NCBI GenBank assembly: GCA_947456505.1
Contig: CANGTC010000022.1
Location: 1 to 33,296, forward strand
Length of the DNA stretch: 33,296 nt
Source: Beijerinckiaceae bacterium
GTDB lineage: Bacteria > Pseudomonadota > Alphaproteobacteria > Rhizobiales > Beijerinckiaceae
Direction of reading: 5' to 3'
Below the pieces are notes generated by a model. It worked only from the letters and a program-made list of their open reading frames with translations. It had not been told where the DNA came from and searched no databases. Made by a program: the position numbers and the translations under genes. Every line of letters starts with the position of its first letter. The first letter of the stretch is position 1. Positions 1 through 7,331 of this stretch are shown piece by piece.

Positions 1-123
1 TCAAACGAGGTGAGACCGTCAAAGACCCCTCGACTGAGGATTGATGCCGCTGTGGAGAGTTGGGAGGGCATGGCGATTTTCGATTCGGGATGTTGGTTCA
101 AGGCTCTGCTAAAGTTAGCTTAG
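1..123 (+). other. Open frame running in from the left edge, possible 3' end of a gene
   Basis: Frame 1 is open from the first base for 40 codons and stops at TAG 121-123. It contains an ATG at codon 24. I recognise no family, and 40 open codons are weak evidence. The rest of the stretch to 209 shows nothing I can name. Confidence 0.15.
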
Positions 124-209
124 CTTTGGTAGATAGCCAAGTGACCGCAGGATCCAACATACGTAATAACTTTTGCAACGCGCTGAACAGAAATCGATGG
201 TTGCTCGTC

Positions 210-905
210 CTAACTCCCTGAAACACCATCGTTCCGATTATAAATGGGGCGTTGATTGTTATTTTCATCTTTAAATTTCAAAATGAAGTATCGCTCCCAT
301 TTAAATTGCTCACTATGCAGCGAGTTAGGGTCGTCAGTGGAGATTTTAGCATATTCGATTGTATCAAAATTCCAATCGCTTCGCTGAGCTTCTTGTGCGC
401 GTCTTTTTATCGACCCCTTACCGATGTAAACTACTGCGCCATCTTTAAGATATCTATAGATCCCCGTCGATTCACTCGAAATCAGACCAATGTCATTTCT
501 CCTGACCTTAAATTGGAAGTCAGGCACAAGAGATATTACCCATATTTTTGATCCATTTAACTTCTCAAGCTTCGGCAAAAACCTCCTTTCCTTTGGATTT
601 GGTCTCTTTATTATATCCGAAACAAATCCGATTTTCCGTAGGGTCTCATCTCCAATTCTGGCTGTTTTTGCGATACCGTTTTTCCAGTTTAGCTTAAGGG
701 ATTTCTCGTCAACTTTGTCCTGTAAAAATGCAAATCCCAATTTGAATGCTTCCTCATCAACGAAAAGCATAACATAGCTGCTTTCTTGCAATTTATTCTG
801 GTAAAGAAACTCCGTGCTAAAATTCACCTTCCCCCCTGAGAAAGATATGAACTTGTCATCGATATCGGTCTTTGGGCTTGTAGGTTCAATAGGCTTCCAG
901 CTCAT
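210..905 (-). CDS. GIY-YIG nuclease-domain protein
   Basis: This 231-aa protein ends in a GIY-YIG domain. GIY is at residues 148-150 and YIG at 160-162, the expected spacing, followed by K168/R169, a glutamate in WERYFI (E204) and an asparagine near the end (N223). These match the catalytic Tyr, Arg, Glu and Asn of the superfamily, so it is probably an active metal-dependent DNA nuclease. Residues 1-140 match nothing I know and may recognise a target or partner. The ATG at 905 is preceded by AAAGGAA at good distance. It diverges from the AlbA_2 protein at 1019 across 113 bases. Base composition is AT-rich like the rest of the island. Standalone GIY-YIG proteins occur in homing, repair and phage defence; context here favours defence, but that is inference. 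Confidence 0.8.
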   Translation of the reverse strand: MSWKPIEPTSPKTDIDDKFISFSGGKVNFSTEFLYQNKLQESSYVMLFVDEEAFKLGFAFLQDKVDEKSLKLNWKNGIAKTARIGDETLRKIGFVSDIIKRPNPKERRFLPKLEKLNGSKIWVISLVPDFQFKVRRNDIGLISSESTGIYRYLKDGAVVYIGKGSIKRRAQEAQRSDWNFDTIEYAKISTDDPNSLHSEQFKWERYFILKFKDENNNQRPIYNRNDGVSGS

Positions 906-950
906 AGATTATTTCCTTTGACGCGCTAGATTGTAATAGCGATTTTACAT

Positions 951-979
951 TTGGAAGTAAAGCTTACTCGTAATATTAT
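951..979 (+). promoter_or_regulatory. Candidate sigma-70-type promoter for the AlbA_2 gene
   Basis: TTGGAA (951-956) and TATTAT (974-979) are separated by 17 bases, a good match in spacing and sequence to -35 and -10 boxes. The predicted start of transcription, near 986, would leave almost no leader before the short upstream ORF at 996. It was found by eye in an AT-rich intergenic region, where chance matches are common. Confidence 0.35.
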
Positions 980-995
980 TGGGTAAGGTGAAACA

Positions 996-1022
996 ATGAT
1001 GATATCCGTGGGGCGTTTATGA
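996..1022 (+). CDS. Short upstream ORF overlapping the start of the AlbA_2 gene
   Basis: An eight-codon frame (MMISVGRL, stop TGA 1020-1022) begins at ATG 996 five to six bases after AAGGTGA, a much better ribosome-binding site than the main gene has. Its stop overlaps the main ATG (1019-1021) as ATGA, a typical arrangement for translational coupling. It may be a leader that delivers ribosomes to the weak main start. A role is inferred from geometry only. Confidence 0.4.
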   Translation: MMISVGRL

Positions 1023-2863
1023 TCGATGACATTCAGTTTGTACATGAGATCACCACCGAGTATCTCGCGCTTCCGGATGGCGTACAGTTTGAGAGCCTAG
1101 AACCGATAGGTGCCCATGACGCCCGTGCCCGCATACATTACACGCGTCTATCTTCATTAATGGCTACCGTGGTATGCAATTTCATCAAATCGTATTGCGA
1201 CCAGTTTAATATTCAGAAAATTTGTAGGAGCTGTACCGGCACCCACGGAATTTTTAATGTATTCAACAGCACTCAAGTGACAGATTTTTACTGCCAAATT
1301 GAAAAATCGGAGTTGAACCAGAGCAACATTCTATTTTGCGGGGATTTCAATGAGTGGCAGGCGTTGGATGCCTTCAAAAAAGATGTGAAATCTTTTCTTT
1401 CGAACATAGGTGACAATGACTTCGTTCTTATTGCTGTGGATAAAAACAGACTGAACGTCTATAAGGATCGATTTAATGAAACATTAGAAAATGAAGGTTT
1501 TTATATCCATCAAATTTTCTTTATTTTTCCAACAGAAAAACTGCCTCTCCTGTCACCAGAAAATGAGGAAATTTCAGATTGGAATCATCTGAGTGATTAC
1601 AAAGACGGTATCTATTTTATCAATTTGAGGAAAGGTGAGTCTAGTTCGGTCTTCGTCAAGATGATTGATGGCGACACCTCATTTGTTGATTTTTTTTCAG
1701 ACACAGATTGTTATATTGAAGACGCGTCGATCAAAGATGGTCTTTTTTTTAATCGTCTGCAATTTTTGGGTTACCCTGATTATGAGAATACGCGATTGTA
1801 TGAATCTAATCGTCTCGAAGCCCGGAATTGGTTGCAAGAGAGAACTGGGAAGCTTGCGGAGTATGATGAATGTCCGTTTTCTAGCCTTCTAAATTTAGAT
1901 AGCGTGGGGGACGAAACTACTAGTGATGCGGCAAATACGCATAGCCTTTTTTTCTCGTGGGGTAATGTATGGAAGGACGAAAATGAGTTAAATATTCATA
2001 GAAGAAAAATATCTAACTTCGCTTTTGACCGCTTCCATAAACATAATGCAGATTCAATAAACAAGGTTATATTTAACTCCAACTTTGCGTCGGCAACCTA
2101 CTTCTATCATTTTTTTAAAAGCACGTTTGGGTCCCGTTATCTTCATTTGTTCCCTTTCTCATTTTGGAAGGATGGAGGGAAGTTAGAGGATTACAGTTTT
2201 CATCTGCCAGTCCCGTCAATCAAGATTCAGTTGGAGATTGTTAGCTCAATCGAAAAATTGGAAAAGGTAAAGGCAAGTCTGTCTGAACTCTCCTTTGACG
2301 GATTGCTTGATCCCGTCTCTACAAATGATATCGCCACAAAAATTAATTCACTTGGAGAGGTTGCGGGCTCATTAAGTGATGCCGAAGCAGTGATGAGTAT
2401 GATCGAGCGTAGAGAGTCAAAAACACTCGAATTTAAAGAAACCCTCTCATGGTCAATACGGGAAAACAAAAAAGCGGGTTATATTCAGGATGAAGTTGTT
2501 GGAACAATTACCGCCTTTCTTAACACTCCTGGAGGAGGAACCCTTCTTATAGGTGTAAATGATCGAGGTGAACTTGCAGGAATTGAGGCAGAGATCAAAA
2601 ATTTAGCCAGCAATTACGACAAATATTTACTTACCTTGAACAATCTTATTGCCAGTCGGGTTGGGAAGGAATTTTTTTCTTATGTAGATTGGAAACTGGT
2701 ATCCATTGGTGGTAAATCAGTAGTCTACGTTTCGTGCAGGAAATCACCACGACCCGTTTGGGCTGGACAGGAGCGATTGTTCGTGCGGACCAACCCCGCA
2801 ACTCATCAACTGTCAGGACCAGCGCTCCTCGTATACATCAAAGAAAACTTTCCAGACAATTGA
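1019..2863 (+). CDS. Methylase/HsdS-like protein fused to a Schlafen AlbA_2 domain
   Basis: The 614-aa protein has three visible parts. Residues about 60-300 resemble the later half of adenine-N6 methylases of type I-like systems, including a segment where such enzymes read roughly 'EGF.I..vf.lP', but I find no NPPY motif or SAM-binding loop. Residues about 355-425 look like the end of an HsdS specificity subunit: a 'LPVPSIKIQLEIV' stretch followed by a helix. Residues about 465-600 are an AlbA_2 (Schlafen-type) domain with LEFKETL and the FLNTPGGGTLLIGVND core. AlbA_2 domains bind nucleic acid or nucleotides and are common in defence proteins. ATG 1019 is the first start after an in-frame stop at 989; its own ribosome site is poor. 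It is convergent with the secreted genes and divergent from the GIY-YIG gene. The AlbA_2 call is firm; the methylase/HsdS relation is tentative. Confidence 0.75.
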   Translation: MIDDIQFVHEITTEYLALPDGVQFESLEPIGAHDARARIHYTRLSSLMATVVCNFIKSYCDQFNIQKICRSCTGTHGIFNVFNSTQVTDFYCQIEKSELNQSNILFCGDFNEWQALDAFKKDVKSFLSNIGDNDFVLIAVDKNRLNVYKDRFNETLENEGFYIHQIFFIFPTEKLPLLSPENEEISDWNHLSDYKDGIYFINLRKGESSSVFVKMIDGDTSFVDFFSDTDCYIEDASIKDGLFFNRLQFLGYPDYENTRLYESNRLEARNWLQERTGKLAEYDECPFSSLLNLDSVGDETTSDAANTHSLFFSWGNVWKDENELNIHRRKISNFAFDRFHKHNADSINKVIFNSNFASATYFYHFFKSTFGSRYLHLFPFSFWKDGGKLEDYSFHLPVPSIKIQLEIVSSIEKLEKVKASLSELSFDGLLDPVSTNDIATKINSLGEVAGSLSDAEAVMSMIERRESKTLEFKETLSWSIRENKKAGYIQDEVVGTITAFLNTPGGGTLLIGVNDRGELAGIEAEIKNLASNYDKYLLTLNNLIASRVGKEFFSYVDWKLVSIGGKSVVYVSCRKSPRPVWAGQERLFVRTNPATHQLSGPALLVYIKENFPDN

Positions 2864-2875
2864 GTGTTTCTCAAT
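2859..2875 (+). terminator. Weak hairpin at the stop codon of the AlbA_2 gene
   Basis: ATTGAG and CTCAAT (six base pairs, five-base loop) enclose the stop codon of the 614-aa gene, with CTTTTT starting six bases later. The stem is short and AT-rich, so it is at best a weak terminator between convergent genes. Confidence 0.25.
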
Positions 2876-2953
2876 AAGGGCTTTTTAAGGTTGTTCGTCC
2901 CAAAGGTGAGGGCGCATCAGCTATCGTATTTTTTGCGCTTGATATGATACGCT

Positions 2954-3508
2954 CTAAAATTCTCTCATCTTCTTTCTACACTGACCGGAAAATCCATTTC
3001 CGTCTGTGGGACCGTTTGCGTTCCAGTTTCGAAATCCATAAGTCACCCGACCCGAAACTCTATCTAAATTCAAATTCCAACTTTGTTGGTTGCGAACACT
3101 TGGGAAATCAATCAATAGGGTACCAATAATACGACGATCATCCACTTGGAATGAATTTGAGCAAGGATGATTCTTATCACACAGCGAATGTCTGATTTTA
3201 TTCTGAAATACCATTCCTAAAAAATCAGTCAGACGAACTTTGCTGTCGCTCGGTTTTTTTTCGTCTAGATCCAGCTCAATGTATTGCGTCGTCTCATAAT
3301 TTCTGTATCTTATCGAGCCGTCAGCGTAGACCGTATTCAAGGTTCCAACGCATTCTAAATTGATTTGCTCGGCTATCGCTCTATCGGGATAAAAAGTTGG
3401 ACAGAAGTACGCAAAGACAAAAAGTAAACAGCGCGCAGTTTGTAATAAATTAGAACGTAGATGCATTTCATTTAGCTTCGCGACTGGGGTCCGTAAAGCT
3501 TTCATCAT
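2954..3508 (-). CDS. Small secreted protein, DRxSG/GxC family, copy 1
   Basis: A 184-aa protein of unknown function. The start chosen is ATG 3508, preceded by GGAG at good spacing; a longer frame to 3604 would overlap the upstream gene. Residues about 15-45 form a basic-then-hydrophobic export signal ending near a DRAIAEQ sequence. The mature part begins with LEC, has an internal Cys pair (CDKNHPC) and ends with LDRVSG followed by GQC and a basic tail. LxC near the start, DRxSG and GxC near the end are shared with the genes at 3541 and 4079, so the three are diverged paralogues, probably periplasmic and disulfide-bonded. The gene begins 32 bases after the stop of its neighbour and is likely co-transcribed. 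I know no assigned function. Confidence 0.6.
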   Translation of the reverse strand: MMKALRTPVAKLNEMHLRSNLLQTARCLLFVFAYFCPTFYPDRAIAEQINLECVGTLNTVYADGSIRYRNYETTQYIELDLDEKKPSDSKVRLTDFLGMVFQNKIRHSLCDKNHPCSNSFQVDDRRIIGTLLIDFPSVRNQQSWNLNLDRVSGRVTYGFRNWNANGPTDGNGFSGQCRKKMREF

Positions 3509-3540
3509 TATATCTCCACCAACCGCCTCTCGCCATCGTA

Positions 3541-4017
3541 TCAGAGTTTTGGATTTGCTTTCGCCTTGGTACACTCTCCTTGCTCTCTTGATTTGAAGCT
3601 CCATTCTCCTGTGATAAAGTCCGATTGGCGATAAAACATCCCACTGTTACGGTCTACATAAAATGTGAATCCTGGCGACACACGCCCGGAGGGAATACTG
3701 AAGGTGTAAAATCTAGAATTTATCTGAACAATATATCTTGTGGTCTCTCTCGAACTCCCATTTGTTCCTAAATCCAAATAATTTTCCAGCGTCGTCGCAT
3801 TGTTATCCATGATGGAAATGTCAACGATCTTTCTGTAGGTTCCACTAGCTCCTCGTTCCATATTTGATAGCCGCAAATTCTCAAAAGAGTAGACAGTCCT
3901 ACAAGAAAGCTGAATTTCAGCGGCAACCGACTTCACTCCTCCAACACAGCACAGCAGTAATAGAGAGGCTGACAATACGAAAATTATTTTAGGCACAAGT
4001 CGCGCTGCTACAGTCAT
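3541..4017 (-). CDS. Small secreted protein, DRxSG/GxC family, copy 2
   Basis: A 158-aa protein with a clear signal peptide: a basic residue, a long hydrophobic core (about residues 10-30) and a likely cleavage after SVAA. The mature chain starts EIQLSC, later has VDRNSG, and ends near GEC plus a lysine-rich tail, so two cysteines could form one disulfide. It belongs with the neighbours at 2954 and 4079. Its ATG lies five bases after the stop codon of integrase remnant C, and its ribosome-binding site (GGAG/GTAGGTG) is made from the remnant's last codons. This suggests the gene was originally the one directly downstream of the integrase. Function unknown. Confidence 0.65.
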   Translation of the reverse strand: MTVAARLVPKIIFVLSASLLLLCCVGGVKSVAAEIQLSCRTVYSFENLRLSNMERGASGTYRKIVDISIMDNNATTLENYLDLGTNGSSRETTRYIVQINSRFYTFSIPSGRVSPGFTFYVDRNSGMFYRQSDFITGEWSFKSREQGECTKAKANPKL

Positions 4018-4022
4018 TACAC

Positions 4023-4078
4023 CTACTCCACCACCCGCCGCTGAGCAAACCCATCGCTCTCAATGTACCGGAAATCAT
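4023..4078 (-). pseudogene. Integrase 3'-end remnant C
   Basis: The minus strand reads FRYIESDGFAQRRVVE then TAG (4025-4023). RYIESDG followed by a short basic tail is the C-terminus of a phage-type tyrosine recombinase and includes the nucleophilic tyrosine. Nothing of the integrase lies upstream: the remnant abuts the stop codon of the secreted gene at 4079. It is nearly colinear at the DNA level with remnants A and B, including the bases leading into the next gene's start codon. Confidence 0.75.
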
Positions 4079-4429
4079 TTAGAACTTGCGGTGTGTTGGG
4101 GCTTGTTCGCATTTTCCAGTCACTGAATACGATTCGCCTAAGGTTATCGAGCCAGAAAGACGGTTTATATAACCATGTACCCATCTTATCTCATTATCAT
4201 TAATGAGAGCACTCATTGTTGTACCGTCCTGATTTATAATTTGTGGCGGGTTAAATCTGATGCGATAAAAAGTTTCATAAATTTGCCCATAATTAGAAAC
4301 ATTTTTGTTCACAACCTGAACTCGACAGGTCAATGAAATTTCGTTCGTAGATTGGTTACTTGATTGAGCGAGTACGGGCTGCGATGTAAGAACACTTGTA
4401 AACAGTAAGGTTCTAACGGCATTTCGCAT
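4079..4429 (-). CDS. Small secreted protein, DRxSG/GxC family, copy 3
   Basis: The ATG at 4429 (116 aa) is preceded by AAGGGGAG eight bases upstream; a GTG one codon earlier is possible. An N-terminal signal peptide ends near VLAQ. The mature part has LTCRV near its start and INRLSG then GKC near the end, finishing RKF. It is the shortest member of the family also found at 3541 and 2954. It sits between integrase remnants B (just upstream) and C (just downstream of its stop). Function is unknown; a periplasmic location is inferred from the signal peptide and cysteine pair. Confidence 0.62.
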   Translation of the reverse strand: MRNAVRTLLFTSVLTSQPVLAQSSNQSTNEISLTCRVQVVNKNVSNYGQIYETFYRIRFNPPQIINQDGTTMSALINDNEIRWVHGYINRLSGSITLGESYSVTGKCEQAPTHRKF

Positions 4430-4444
4430 CACACCAGCTCCCCT

Positions 4445-4534
4445 TTGTGTCCCTGACTAATCCATCACTCTCAATATACCGCTGTGTGGTGCTGAGAGCT
4501 GAGTGACCAGCAAGCATCTGAATTTGCCTAACTG
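4445..4534 (-). pseudogene. Integrase 3'-end remnant B
   Basis: The minus strand reads VRQIQMLAGHSALSTTQRYIESDGL before diverging into the leader of the next gene. LAGHSALSTTQRYI is the signature of the last catalytic box of tyrosine recombinases, with the box II histidine (GH) and the nucleophilic Tyr. The remnant starts almost at the stop codon of the secreted gene at 4535 and runs into the start region of the gene at 4079. Confidence 0.82.
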
Positions 4535-4936
4535 CTACTTTACAGTTATCTCAAATGTTCTCTTTCGGCTGTTGCCGTTAGGGAAGAACGTTTCAATTAC
4601 CAAACGGTCTTTACCGGCGAATCCATCGTCGCTTGTATAATAGTATTTGGAGACAGCCCGTTTCTCTAGGTTGCAGCGGAATTTTTGATCGGTGGATGCA
4701 TATGCGCTATTACCCTCCTCATCTAATGACTCAAATTTACCGCTTTTCGGTGACTGAAGTATCCGAACAGTTATCGGACCTTCAACGGAGCAATCAGGAT
4801 TTAAGGCGTAAGAAAATCCTATTCTAGTTCTCACGCCCATAGCGACGGATGAAATGGTAGTGGTTGGGGAAAGCTCCATCGCATTAGACTGCGATATGCA
4901 AACGAGTCCAACTAGAGAAATGGACAGCGCTCTCAT
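4535..4936 (-). CDS. Secreted single-domain Ig-like protein, copy 1
   Basis: A 133-aa protein with a signal peptide (residues 1-19, cleavage near SNA). The rest is one beta-rich domain whose pattern (PKSGK... , YYYTSDDGFAGKDRLVIE..., a C-terminal strand ending ITVK) resembles the 'G.v.....YtP...F.G.D.f' pattern of bacterial Ig-like/cadherin-like repeats. Cysteines in NPDC and FRC probably pair. It is paralogous to the upstream gene and overlaps its stop as ATGA, so the two are translationally coupled. Remnant B begins right after its stop. Ligand and role unknown. Confidence 0.65.
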   Translation of the reverse strand: MRALSISLVGLVCISQSNAMELSPTTTISSVAMGVRTRIGFSYALNPDCSVEGPITVRILQSPKSGKFESLDEEGNSAYASTDQKFRCNLEKRAVSKYYYTSDDGFAGKDRLVIETFFPNGNSRKRTFEITVK

Positions 4937-5343
4937 TTTTTCACCGTTACTGTTACAGATATTTTTGTTGATTTAGCCTGGATCGGATCGAACAGCTCTA
5001 GATCAATTACGTCAGATCCAGAAAAGTCAGGCTTCGATGTGTAGAAAATTTTCGTCAGGGGAACCTGACGTGTATTGCATTTCGATCTAGGATTAGAAGC
5101 AGGGAAATTGGTAAAGCCACCCTCATCGACAACCTCTACCGTGCCATTTTTAGGTTCTTTTCGAACCTTGACGGCATATGATCCAGCCAATGTGCAATCG
5201 GGGTGCACCAACGCTGCCCAATACACGACTGTTCGGGTGTCAGATAAGGCGACTGGTTTGAGAGTTACAGGCGCAGCAGCCTGAGCTAACGCACCAGTGG
5301 CAGTGATCGTGACAACAGCAAGCCCTCTGAGCAAAGCAATCAT
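4933..5343 (-). CDS. Secreted single-domain Ig-like protein, copy 2
   Basis: The ATG at 5343 gives 136 aa and is preceded by AAGGGAGAG; a longer open frame to 5493 only reads through integrase remnant A in another frame and is not used. The signal peptide (about residues 1-21, ending ALAQ) leads into a domain with HPDC, PKNGTV, a KCN cysteine and IFYTSKPDFSGSD, matching its neighbour at 4535. It is the first gene after integrase remnant A and overlaps the next gene by four bases. Export and pairing of the two cysteines are inferred; function is unknown. Confidence 0.65.
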   Translation of the reverse strand: MIALLRGLAVVTITATGALAQAAAPVTLKPVALSDTRTVVYWAALVHPDCTLAGSYAVKVRKEPKNGTVEVVDEGGFTNFPASNPRSKCNTRQVPLTKIFYTSKPDFSGSDVIDLELFDPIQAKSTKISVTVTVKK

Positions 5344-5370
5344 TTTTCTCTCCCTTGACACCAACGCCAC

Positions 5371-5575
5371 CACTCCCCGTGAGCCAGTCCATCGCTCTGG
5401 ATGTAACGATGAGTGGTATTGAGAGCCTAGTGACGTGCCAACAACTGTATGTGCCGCAACGAACCACTGACGGTTGAGATCTCCCTCGCCCATTTGGCAG
5501 CCGCTGTCCTACGACCACTATGGCTCGACGCCCCGCTAAAGCCAAGAGCACGGTAACAGCTAGTGAACTTGCTAA
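5371..5575 (-). pseudogene. Integrase 3'-end remnant A (tyrosine recombinase)
   Basis: The minus strand reads SGASSHSGRRT, then SLRHIQLLARH, a TAG stop (5429-5427), then ALNTTHRYIQSDGLAH. HSGR carries the HxxR box (Arg II); LARH the next catalytic histidine; THRYI the tyrosine nucleophile. The order and spacing are those of a phage/island integrase C-terminus, but the internal stop and the lack of an upstream frame make it a pseudogene. It lies close to the tRNA-Gly locus, where the integrase of a tRNA-inserted element is expected. Confidence 0.85.
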
Positions 5576-5877
5576 TGATTGCAAAGCTTGTGATTTACGA
5601 TGCTCGCCCTACCATGATCGGATTATGGCTGCTTTGACACACGACGTATCTAAGCCCCACGGGGCTACGTGAGCCCCTGCTGGTTGTCCTTGCAGCGCGG
5701 CATGATGCTCACTCCCCTGCCCTCAGCGACCAGCCAGCGCAAAGCACCTCATTGACCGCTGAACAGGCTCAGTGCGTCATACAGTGAGATGCGAAGCTGG
5801 TTCGTCTGCCATCTGCCGTGATGAGGCGTCGAGATGCGACGATACTAATTGGGGGATGGAATAGGATTTGGAAGGGC
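5576..5877. other. Gene-free stretch between tRNA-Gly and integrase remnant A
   Basis: All frames are broken by stops. The only structure I see is a short perfect inverted repeat, AGCCCC-AC-GGGGCT, near 5652-5665. By position this could be the rest of the decayed integrase gene, but no integrase motif is readable. Confidence 0.4.
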
Positions 5878-5951
5878 TGGAGCGGGTGAAGGGAATCGAA
5901 CCCTCGTATGTTGCTTGGGAAGCAACTGTTCTACCATTGAACTACACCCGC
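5878..5951 (-). tRNA. tRNA-Gly (anticodon CCC), complete
   Basis: The minus strand folds as a tRNA: acceptor GCGGGTG pairs with CACCCGC, the D arm contains GTTCAATGGTAGAAC, the anticodon arm is GTTGC-TTCCCAA-GCAAC, and the T arm holds GGTTCGATTCC. The loop places CCC at positions 34-36. The discriminator T is at 5881 and the CCA is encoded at 5880-5878. It reads GGG codons. Its stems differ from the truncated copy at 6074-6113, so the two were not formed by simple duplication at this locus. Confidence 0.95.
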
Positions 5952-6004
5952 ATTCAGGCTTCGATTGGTACCTGTACCCGACTGACGCATCAACATGTTT
6001 TTTA

Positions 6005-6023
6005 GTATATCACGGTATATCAC
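6005..6023. repeat. Direct repeat of GTATATCAC
   Basis: GTATATCAC occurs at 6005-6013 and 6015-6023, ten bases (one helical turn) apart, in the AT-rich gap between complete and truncated tRNA-Gly. Short helically phased direct repeats beside a tRNA attachment core are typical arm-type sites for tyrosine integrases. The repeat is seen; the role is inferred. Confidence 0.45.
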
Positions 6024-6073
6024 TTATGCAGATCAGATTTACTAATAAAATCAATGGCTTAGGAAAAAAAGAA

Positions 6074-6113
6074 AGCTTGGGAAGCTTCCGTTCTACCATT
6101 GAACTACGCCCGC
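6074..6113 (-). pseudogene. Truncated tRNA-Gly (CCC), 5' half; island boundary
   Basis: From 6113 the minus strand reads GCGGGCG, the same D arm as the complete gene, then GGAAGC-TTCCCAA-GCTT, and then breaks off into AT-rich DNA. The acceptor 3' strand and T arm are missing. It shares with the complete copy the D arm, the 11-base anticodon core GCTTCCCAAGC and part of the upstream flank (GCCTGA-TGCGGG). I read it as the original chromosomal tRNA, cut by the island in the anticodon arm. Confidence 0.85.
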
Positions 6114-6167
6114 ATCAGGCCATAGCTGTATACCCGCTTGCGCCCCTGTTTCGCAAGGGCGAACCGC

Positions 6168-7331
6168 TCAGCATAATTCCGAAGCCAGCCGCCGCATGAA
6201 GGCGACGCCCTCGGCCAGCTGGCTTTCCTCCAGGAATTCATTGGGTTGATGGGCCTGCTCGATGCTGCCGGGGCCGCACACGACGGTCGGGATTCCCGCG
6301 CTCTGGAAGCGCCCGGCCTCGGTGGCGTAGGAAACCGCGATGGTGGCGTTGCGGCGGCTCGCCTTGAAGGCGAGGGCCTCGGCGGGTGAGCCGGGCTCGG
6401 GCGCGAGGCCCGGCACCTCCACCTCGGCCGTCGTTTCGATGTTGGCGTCCGGCGCATGGCGGCGCAGGCGAGGCAGGATCTCGCGGGCGATGGCGCCCTC
6501 CAGATGGCGCAGGGCCGCATCCTGCGCCACGCCGGGCAAGCCGCGAAACTCCCAGTTGAAGGAACAGTCCCGCGCCAGAATATTACGCGCCGTGCCACCC
6601 TGAATCACGCCCACGCTGATGGTGGATTGGCCCGGAATGAAACGTCCGCCCGGATCGCCCGCAGCGGCGCATTGCTCCATGAAACGGTAGAGTTCGCCCA
6701 CCAGCGCACAGGCCGCCTCGATAGCGTTGGCGCCGAGCATGGGGTTGGACGAATGGGCCTCATGGCCGCGCACCCGCGTCACATAGGTCGCGACCGACTT
6801 GTGGGCGTCCGCCACTTGCATGAGGGTCGGCTCACCCACAATCACCGCGCCCGGACGGGGCAGATCGCGCCCAAAGCGAGCGATGGTGTCCACCGGGCCG
6901 AGGCAAGTGGTCTCCTCGTCATAGCTCAGCAGGATATGGATGGGCCGCTTGAGCGGCAGGGCCTGAAATTCGGGAATCATGGCCAGCGCCAGGGCGTCGA
7001 AGCCCTTCATGTCGCAGGCGCCGCGCCCATAGAGCTTGCCCGCCTCACGGCGCAGGGCGAAGGGGTCGGAGGTCCAGACCTGCCCGGCCACCGGCACCAC
7101 ATCTGTATGGCCTGAAAGCACGACGCCGCCATCCTGCATGGGCCCTATGGTGGCGAAGAGCGCGGCCTTGTCGCCAGCTGCGTTGGGAACCTTCACATAG
7201 GGAACGTCGAGCCCGCGCAGATGGTCCTCGACAGCGGCGACGAGGTCGAGGTTGGATTTCGAACTTTCCGTGTCGAAAGCGACCAGCCGCTCGAGGAGCT
7301 GGATCGCCGCTTCGAGCCGCTGGGTGGTCAT
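6168..7331 (-). CDS. argE: Acetylornithine deacetylase
   Basis: A 387-aa M20-family metallopeptidase that removes acetate from N-acetyl-ornithine in arginine synthesis, in the cytoplasm. Visible ligands: H75 and D77 in SGHTDVVP, the bridging D107 in GACDMKG, the catalytic glutamate and its neighbour in DEE (138-140), and a late AHQPNE histidine. Length and motif spacing fit ArgE better than DapE, although related deacylases share these motifs. It is the first chromosomal gene right of the island, its stop lying 54 bases from the tRNA fragment, and it follows apaG by ten bases on the same strand, so the two are probably co-transcribed. Confidence 0.88.
   Translation of the reverse strand: MTTQRLEAAIQLLERLVAFDTESSKSNLDLVAAVEDHLRGLDVPYVKVPNAAGDKAALFATIGPMQDGGVVLSGHTDVVPVAGQVWTSDPFALRREAGKLYGRGACDMKGFDALALAMIPEFQALPLKRPIHILLSYDEETTCLGPVDTIARFGRDLPRPGAVIVGEPTLMQVADAHKSVATYVTRVRGHEAHSSNPMLGANAIEAACALVGELYRFMEQCAAAGDPGGRFIPGQSTISVGVIQGGTARNILARDCSFNWEFRGLPGVAQDAALRHLEGAIAREILPRLRRHAPDANIETTAEVEVPGLAPEPGSPAEALAFKASRRNATIAVSYATEAGRFQSAGIPTVVCGPGSIEQAHQPNEFLEESQLAEGVAFMRRLASELC

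Follow-up and report, generated by a model that had tools for sequence, protein, structure and literature searches.

The locus raises the question of how half of a tRNA-Gly(CCC) gene came to lie a short distance from a complete but different one. The window, a stretch of 33,296 nucleotides, is the entire contig C22 of a draft MAG of 325 contigs (88% complete, 6% contaminated). ARAGORN identified a single tRNA in it, a tRNA-Gly(CCC) on the minus strand (5951-5878) with the anticodon stem GTTGC/GCAAC. From 6113, the minus strand reads as a second tRNA-Gly start that, past AAGCTT, changes to TCTTTTTTTCC. Rfam gave the complete gene 73.1 bits, while the 6113-side half together with the DNA downstream scored 26.0, below the gathering score of 29. 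Positions 5913-5953 and 6075-6115 share 90% identity over 41 nt, and a blastn self-comparison gave E 6.5e-11; the likeness is thus not due to chance. The stem differences listed in an initial annotation of this DNA are correct (acceptor GCGGGTG versus GCGGGCG and anticodon stem GTTGC versus GAAGC). The related upstream flank that it ascribed to the complete gene proved weak, as the repeat ends 2 bases upstream of the gene, leaving a short GCCTGA(A)T that is common by eye. Across the junction the GC content shifts from ~0.4 on the element side to ~0.65.

The half at 6084-6113 (minus strand) comprises positions 1-31 of the host tRNA-Gly(CCC) and is followed by an 11-bp common core, TTCCCAAGCTT (6073-6083, minus strand), which spans the 7-nt anticodon loop and reaches into the 3' stem. 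The gene is hence split in its anticodon arm, as first annotated, but not demonstrably just after the anticodon: host identity continues through GCTT and the crossover can be placed anywhere within 6073-6083. Searching the genome with this region (E ≤0.001) returned four places, namely the window, a tRNA-Gly(TCC) gene on C5, a tRNA-Gly(GCC) gene on C32 and a 44-base match on the 3056-bp contig C323. The C323 match (346-389) is the 3' half of the host gene; it reads AACGATTCCCAAGCTTCATACGAGGGTTCGATTCCCTTCGCCCGCTCCA, and its CGCCCGC pairs with the GCGGGCG of the window half. A 3' half running from the core into a T arm had been predicted and set as a test beforehand. When joined at TTCCCAAGCTT, the two halves are identical to the intact gene of a relative, G036, at 74/74 bases. 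The assembly, 88% complete, yielded no other complete tRNA-Gly(CCC), a search that had likewise been put forward at the start.

To define the site we used seven relatives of the same genus, picked because their match extended through the half tRNA (G036, G005, G032, G033, G027, G028, and G016). All seven carry one complete tRNA-Gly(CCC) at the site. In six of them, this gene is located between a chromosomal flank of the window type and a flank of the C323 type, which provides the empty site anticipated by the initial annotation; the contig of the seventh, G016, stops at the gene, so the second flank is absent from that comparison. Every relative aligns exactly on the window side to base 6073 and C323 aligns from base 346 onward, which together give the core its length of 11 bp. 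Because the single intact gene of the six relatives is flanked by DNA matching both contigs, C22 and C323 flank a single insertion site, which arose by insertion rather than from a pair of paralogues. Against this arrangement, each side is on a contig of its own and the MAG is 6% contaminated. No left neighbour of C22 was found either, as comparing the window's first 400 bases with the other contigs gave chance-size matches only.

Does either junction restore a tRNA? The repeat common to both is 11 bp only, and the sequence past the core at the window junction does not resemble a T arm or acceptor. A classic tRNA-restoring island, by contrast, has a long repeat of the 3' part that rebuilds the tRNA at one junction. 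On that reading the element would carry the 3' part, one junction would be functional and the extra complete copy would be incidental cargo. This is the usual arrangement, and the tRNA-Gly(TCC) of another genome of the genus, G019, has its look, with a complete gene on C469 (L065:3134-3207) and a 3' half on C294 (L066:5580-5626) sharing ~47 bases by eye. Given the missing T arm and acceptor and a junction repeat of merely 11 bp, however, we regard it as hardly tenable here. The 11-bp core and a junction half that falls short of the tRNA gathering score are, instead, features of tRNA-dependent lysogeny. At the junction itself (6089-6062, minus strand), the host anticodon hairpin is followed by the T run of the element to give a terminator-like arrangement, which is also present in G019; a terminator search there found 1 against 0.5 expected in shuffles, and no terminator is claimed.

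The origin of the complete tRNA is revealed by G019. Of 397 family genomes, two matched the 129 nt that separate the core from the complete tRNA, namely the source genome and G019, the latter with 95% identity over query bases 1-128. In G019 this block sits behind a different host half (GCGGGTG...GCAGC), next to other chromosomal DNA, and runs into an identical complete tRNA (69/69 bases), within which the contig ends. The same contig is also found in a MAG deposited as Rhizobium sp. Q54 (NCBI lineage Hyphomicrobiales). Since the same end and tRNA are joined to a different host half, the complete tRNA belongs to the inserted DNA. A complete tRNA-Gly(CCC) that travels with the element end is a further feature of tRNA-dependent lysogeny.

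A survey of the genus agrees with this assignment. In a pattern search of 51 genomes, 40 had a single complete tRNA-Gly(CCC) and the other 11 gave no match. The anticodon stem was GAAGC/GCTTC in 27 of the 40, GCAGC/GCTGC in 10, ACAGC/GCTGT in one and GTTGC/GCAAC in two, the last being restricted to the source genome and G019, in neither of which a second complete CCC gene was found. The initial annotation had named an old paralogue as an alternative; in its tandem form, one of two neighboring tRNA-Gly(CCC) genes of the host would have degenerated or been disrupted independently. Tandem tRNA-Gly genes do exist, and 6 of the 22 stretches in the scan described below are intact arrays. But a single gene occupies the site in 7/7 relatives, the 40 genus genomes with a match have one complete match each and, in G019, the complete copy accompanies the element end behind another host half, observations that make a tandem origin very improbable.

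Against this assignment stands that, of the 51 genus genomes, the source genome alone yielded the C323-side end, with G019 among the misses. In G019, the 3' half was not found, nor did anything match the cargo that adjoins the tRNA, though the G019 contig stops within the tRNA. An order-wide pattern search for CCC and TCC pairs matched 1 of 397 genomes, again the source genome, and G019 was absent from the matches listed. Among plasmids, 167 records match the element end, but none covers 80% of the query, and the 15 matches listed all start at query base 123 or beyond, the tRNA being query 130-203.

The element ends contain repeated motifs. CTAAGCCATTGA (6051-6062, minus strand) recurs at the other end as CTAAGCCGTTGA (L005:313), giving one copy of CTAAGCCrTTGA per end. 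GTGATATAC is present in two direct copies (6015-6023 and 6005-6013, minus strand) and once at the C323 end (L005:285), where GTGATAT appears again at 298. With the core between them, these motifs look like possible arm-type integrase sites. The genome has nine PF00589 matches on eight contigs, none of them on C22 or C323. GTGATATAC was absent from the stretches fetched from seven of these eight contigs, two of which were partial, and CTAARYCRTTGA occurred once in the same stretches, on C108. On that contig (L045:10711-12206), what by eye is a tRNA-Thr 3' end adjoins an Arm-DNA-bind_3 integrase, and CTAAGTCATTGATTTT is much like the element-end motif. We take the C108 integrase and its CTAARYCRTTGA as a hint of a link to the element and no more.

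The remaining part of the element in the window (1-5877) is low in GC, continues off the contig end and belongs to a probably rhizobial island, most of which lies outside C22 and C323. It encodes a Schlafen/AlbA_2 domain protein (1019-2863) and small predicted secreted proteins. A PHROGs scan of the seven ORFs of this 5.9-kb part found no phage structural proteins, and the element may be a phage, a conjugative element or a satellite. No intact integrase was found in this part, only C-terminal relics of the tyrosine recombinase family, all on the minus strand. The first relic (5352-5462) includes a stop, and the second (4431-4532) shares 56% identity with it over 34 residues; the third (4026-4079) belongs to the same family and is the shortest. 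Weak integrase matches were obtained for the middle relic (Pfam E 0.02, which misses the cut-off; PHROG E 0.0022), while pieces of the 5462-5352 relic gave no integrase match in Pfam. Across 4026-5462 (minus strand) the three relics alternate with genes for small predicted secreted proteins, two of which, 4535-4936 and 4933-5346, are paralogues with 31% identity. The 4535-4936 protein has relatives in nine other genus genomes, and no integrase relic was present near them at the seven loci searched.

Three relics of one family suggest several past events, and the crossover end and the complete tRNA could accordingly have separate origins, brought to the same place by two elements or events. However, core side, repeats and tRNA form a single block with ~95% identity between two species that differ in the host half preceding it, indicating that they now travel together, and we view a composite origin as rather improbable. 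It is very likely that an integrative element split the host tRNA-Gly(CCC) at its anticodon loop and swapped in its own copy, which upholds the initial annotation on the combined evidence of the 3' half, the empty sites and G019. The element would insert by site-specific recombination at the host anticodon loop, where most likely a tyrosine integrase recombines attP with the loop sequence. As attP and attB would share only ~11 bp, neither junction would rebuild the tRNA, and the complete tRNA-Gly(CCC) of the element, which is located ~120 bp from the core, would replace the host gene upon insertion. The carried tRNA is presumably expressed. The initial annotation had the replacement arriving with its own promoter; the replacement stands, and the promoter stays conjectural, as the sole match in a consensus promoter scan of 5840-6240 is on the strand opposite to the carried tRNA. 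The replacement may also be of value to the host, but the tRNA-Gly(TCC) of this genome (C5) can in principle read GGG by wobble, so that the host may not depend on the carried copy.

Is the same anatomy found in other bacteria? We scanned one genome per species (84,980 species) for two tRNA-Gly(CCC) 5' parts 100-160 bases apart, a scope of one anticodon and one spacing range, and sorted the 22 resulting stretches by reading. Six are intact arrays (L069, L070, L073, L074, L076, and L081) and one has an N in the second copy (L072). In eight, the first copy is interrupted lower in the gene, within or close to the T arm (L068, L071, L075, L078, L079, L082, L084, and L086). In four of these, all gammaproteobacterial MAGs (L068, L075, L079, and L082), the tRNA-Gly(CCC) is cut at the T loop and followed by a hairpin with GCCGGGAGC, and an intact copy lies ~170 bases on, the two copies being alike at 30/30 bases compared. 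One stretch (L077:7216-7430) consists of two stacked tRNA-Gly 5' halves ~90 bases apart and then a complete gene, as might result from successive insertions at one place.

In the remaining six stretches, the first copy breaks off in the anticodon loop and the complete copy after it has another sequence: G019 (L080), Selenomonas sp. FOBRC6 (L067), S. ruminantium (L087), a Veillonellaceae MAG (L088), Ectothiorhodospira shaposhnikovii (L085) and an Acidobacteria MAG (L083). In FOBRC6, contig C81 bears the 3' half together with a tyrosine integrase, and CTTCCCAAGCTT is common to both junctions, an analogy that favors the reading given for the window. An integrase adjoins the complete tRNA in S. 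ruminantium and the Veillonellaceae MAG. All three Selenomonas-like cases contain CACCTTAT between core and tRNA, twice in two of them and at least once in the third. In the S. ruminantium MAG the carried copy is not the sole one, as a further complete tRNA-Gly(CCC) lies on a separate contig. The Ectothiorhodospira and Acidobacteria cases are weaker, because no PF00589 match was listed on the same contig and the 3' half was not found. Viral contigs searched with one arm pattern and two spacing patterns gave no stretches. A control pattern for tRNA-Gly(CCC) 3' parts gave at least 120 on these contigs, and the 120 listed comprise 57 with a complete gene, 63 without and none with a 5' half lacking the T arm.

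In 7/7 anticodon-loop cases (the window and the six scan cases), two or three of the five stem positions 27-31 are not the same in the carried tRNA as in the host half, whereas the 8/8 cases cut lower show no differences there. One might imagine that the core, the arm sites and the replacement tRNA make up a portable attachment module in which the changed anticodon stem, with the loop retained, spares the carried tRNA from the element's own integrase. For a background, we compared 33 distinct complete genes with one another and kept the pairs with 3-5 differences over 30 positions. Of the 685 differences in these pairs, 250 fall in the stem, and at least two stem differences occur in 86 of the 162 pairs. 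On this background, the chance of two or more stem differences in all five lineages is 0.04, a value that excludes G019 (same element) and the Acidobacteria case (unrelated tRNA). Because the differences among natural tRNA-Gly(CCC) genes are also concentrated in the stem, these counts lend the idea little weight and we hold it to be doubtful. If true, it would mean that such elements spread over distant bacteria, exchanging a tRNA that can be targeted for one that resists them and related elements.

The locus thus illustrates a route by which the version of a translation gene carried by a mobile element replaces that of the genome, and a half tRNA may stand next to a complete one without being a duplicate of it. 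In classic islands, as described for Islander (PMC4383910), insertion likewise splits a tRNA gene, but there the element's own sequence restores the gene at the junction, which is not the case here. Closer in kind are Sinorhizobium meliloti prophages that resemble the Mesorhizobium phage vB_MloP_Lo5R7ANS (PMC11476347), in which the host tRNA-Leu(UAG) is inactivated and a prophage copy, closer to genes of other Alphaproteobacteria, replaces it. The two systems have in common an inactivated host tRNA gene, a replacement of the same isoacceptor on the element and Hyphomicrobiales hosts. They differ in the tRNA, and in the portions of PMC11476347 available to us we found no description of a carried gene positioned beside the core. 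According to PMC12429752, in the portions available, such replacement was not found in phiLM21-like prophages. The accessible parts of PMC9897764 and PMC8627217 provided no further case, and a literature search on tRNA-dependent lysogeny, drawing on sources available in part, found no replacement at tRNA-Gly(CCC), although published ones may exist.

The strategy as such was described for actinobacteriophages, viruses of Mycobacterium and related bacteria, as tRNA-dependent lysogeny (Guerrero-Bustamante and Hatfull 2024, PMC10865867). There the cores measure 8-17 bp, the targets are Lys(TTT), Ile2(CAT), and Leu(CAA), the integrases are known and host dependence was proven experimentally. Table 2 of that paper also has phages at tRNA-Gly genes, five at CCC and two at TCC, and these rebuild the gene. 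The Lj965 prophage of Lactobacillus johnsonii, by the description cited there, also leaves the tRNA unrebuilt and carries a cognate tRNA, in this instance in a lactic acid bacterium. Like the actinobacteriophages, the present element has a short core in a host tRNA gene (11 bp, compared with 8-17 bp), no rebuilt junction, a diverged element-borne tRNA of the same isotype and putative arm sites beside the core. Unlike them, it is an island at Gly(CCC), known from its sequence, and the part recovered yielded integrase relics only. The principle is therefore already known. To it are added a tRNA-Gly(CCC) case for which both junctions and six empty sites are documented, together with a second insertion in a different species, its setting in a probably rhizobial island, and candidates from the scan in Negativicutes, Gammaproteobacteria, and Acidobacteria, which bear on the question raised in PMC10865867 of how prevalent the strategy is beyond actinobacteriophages.
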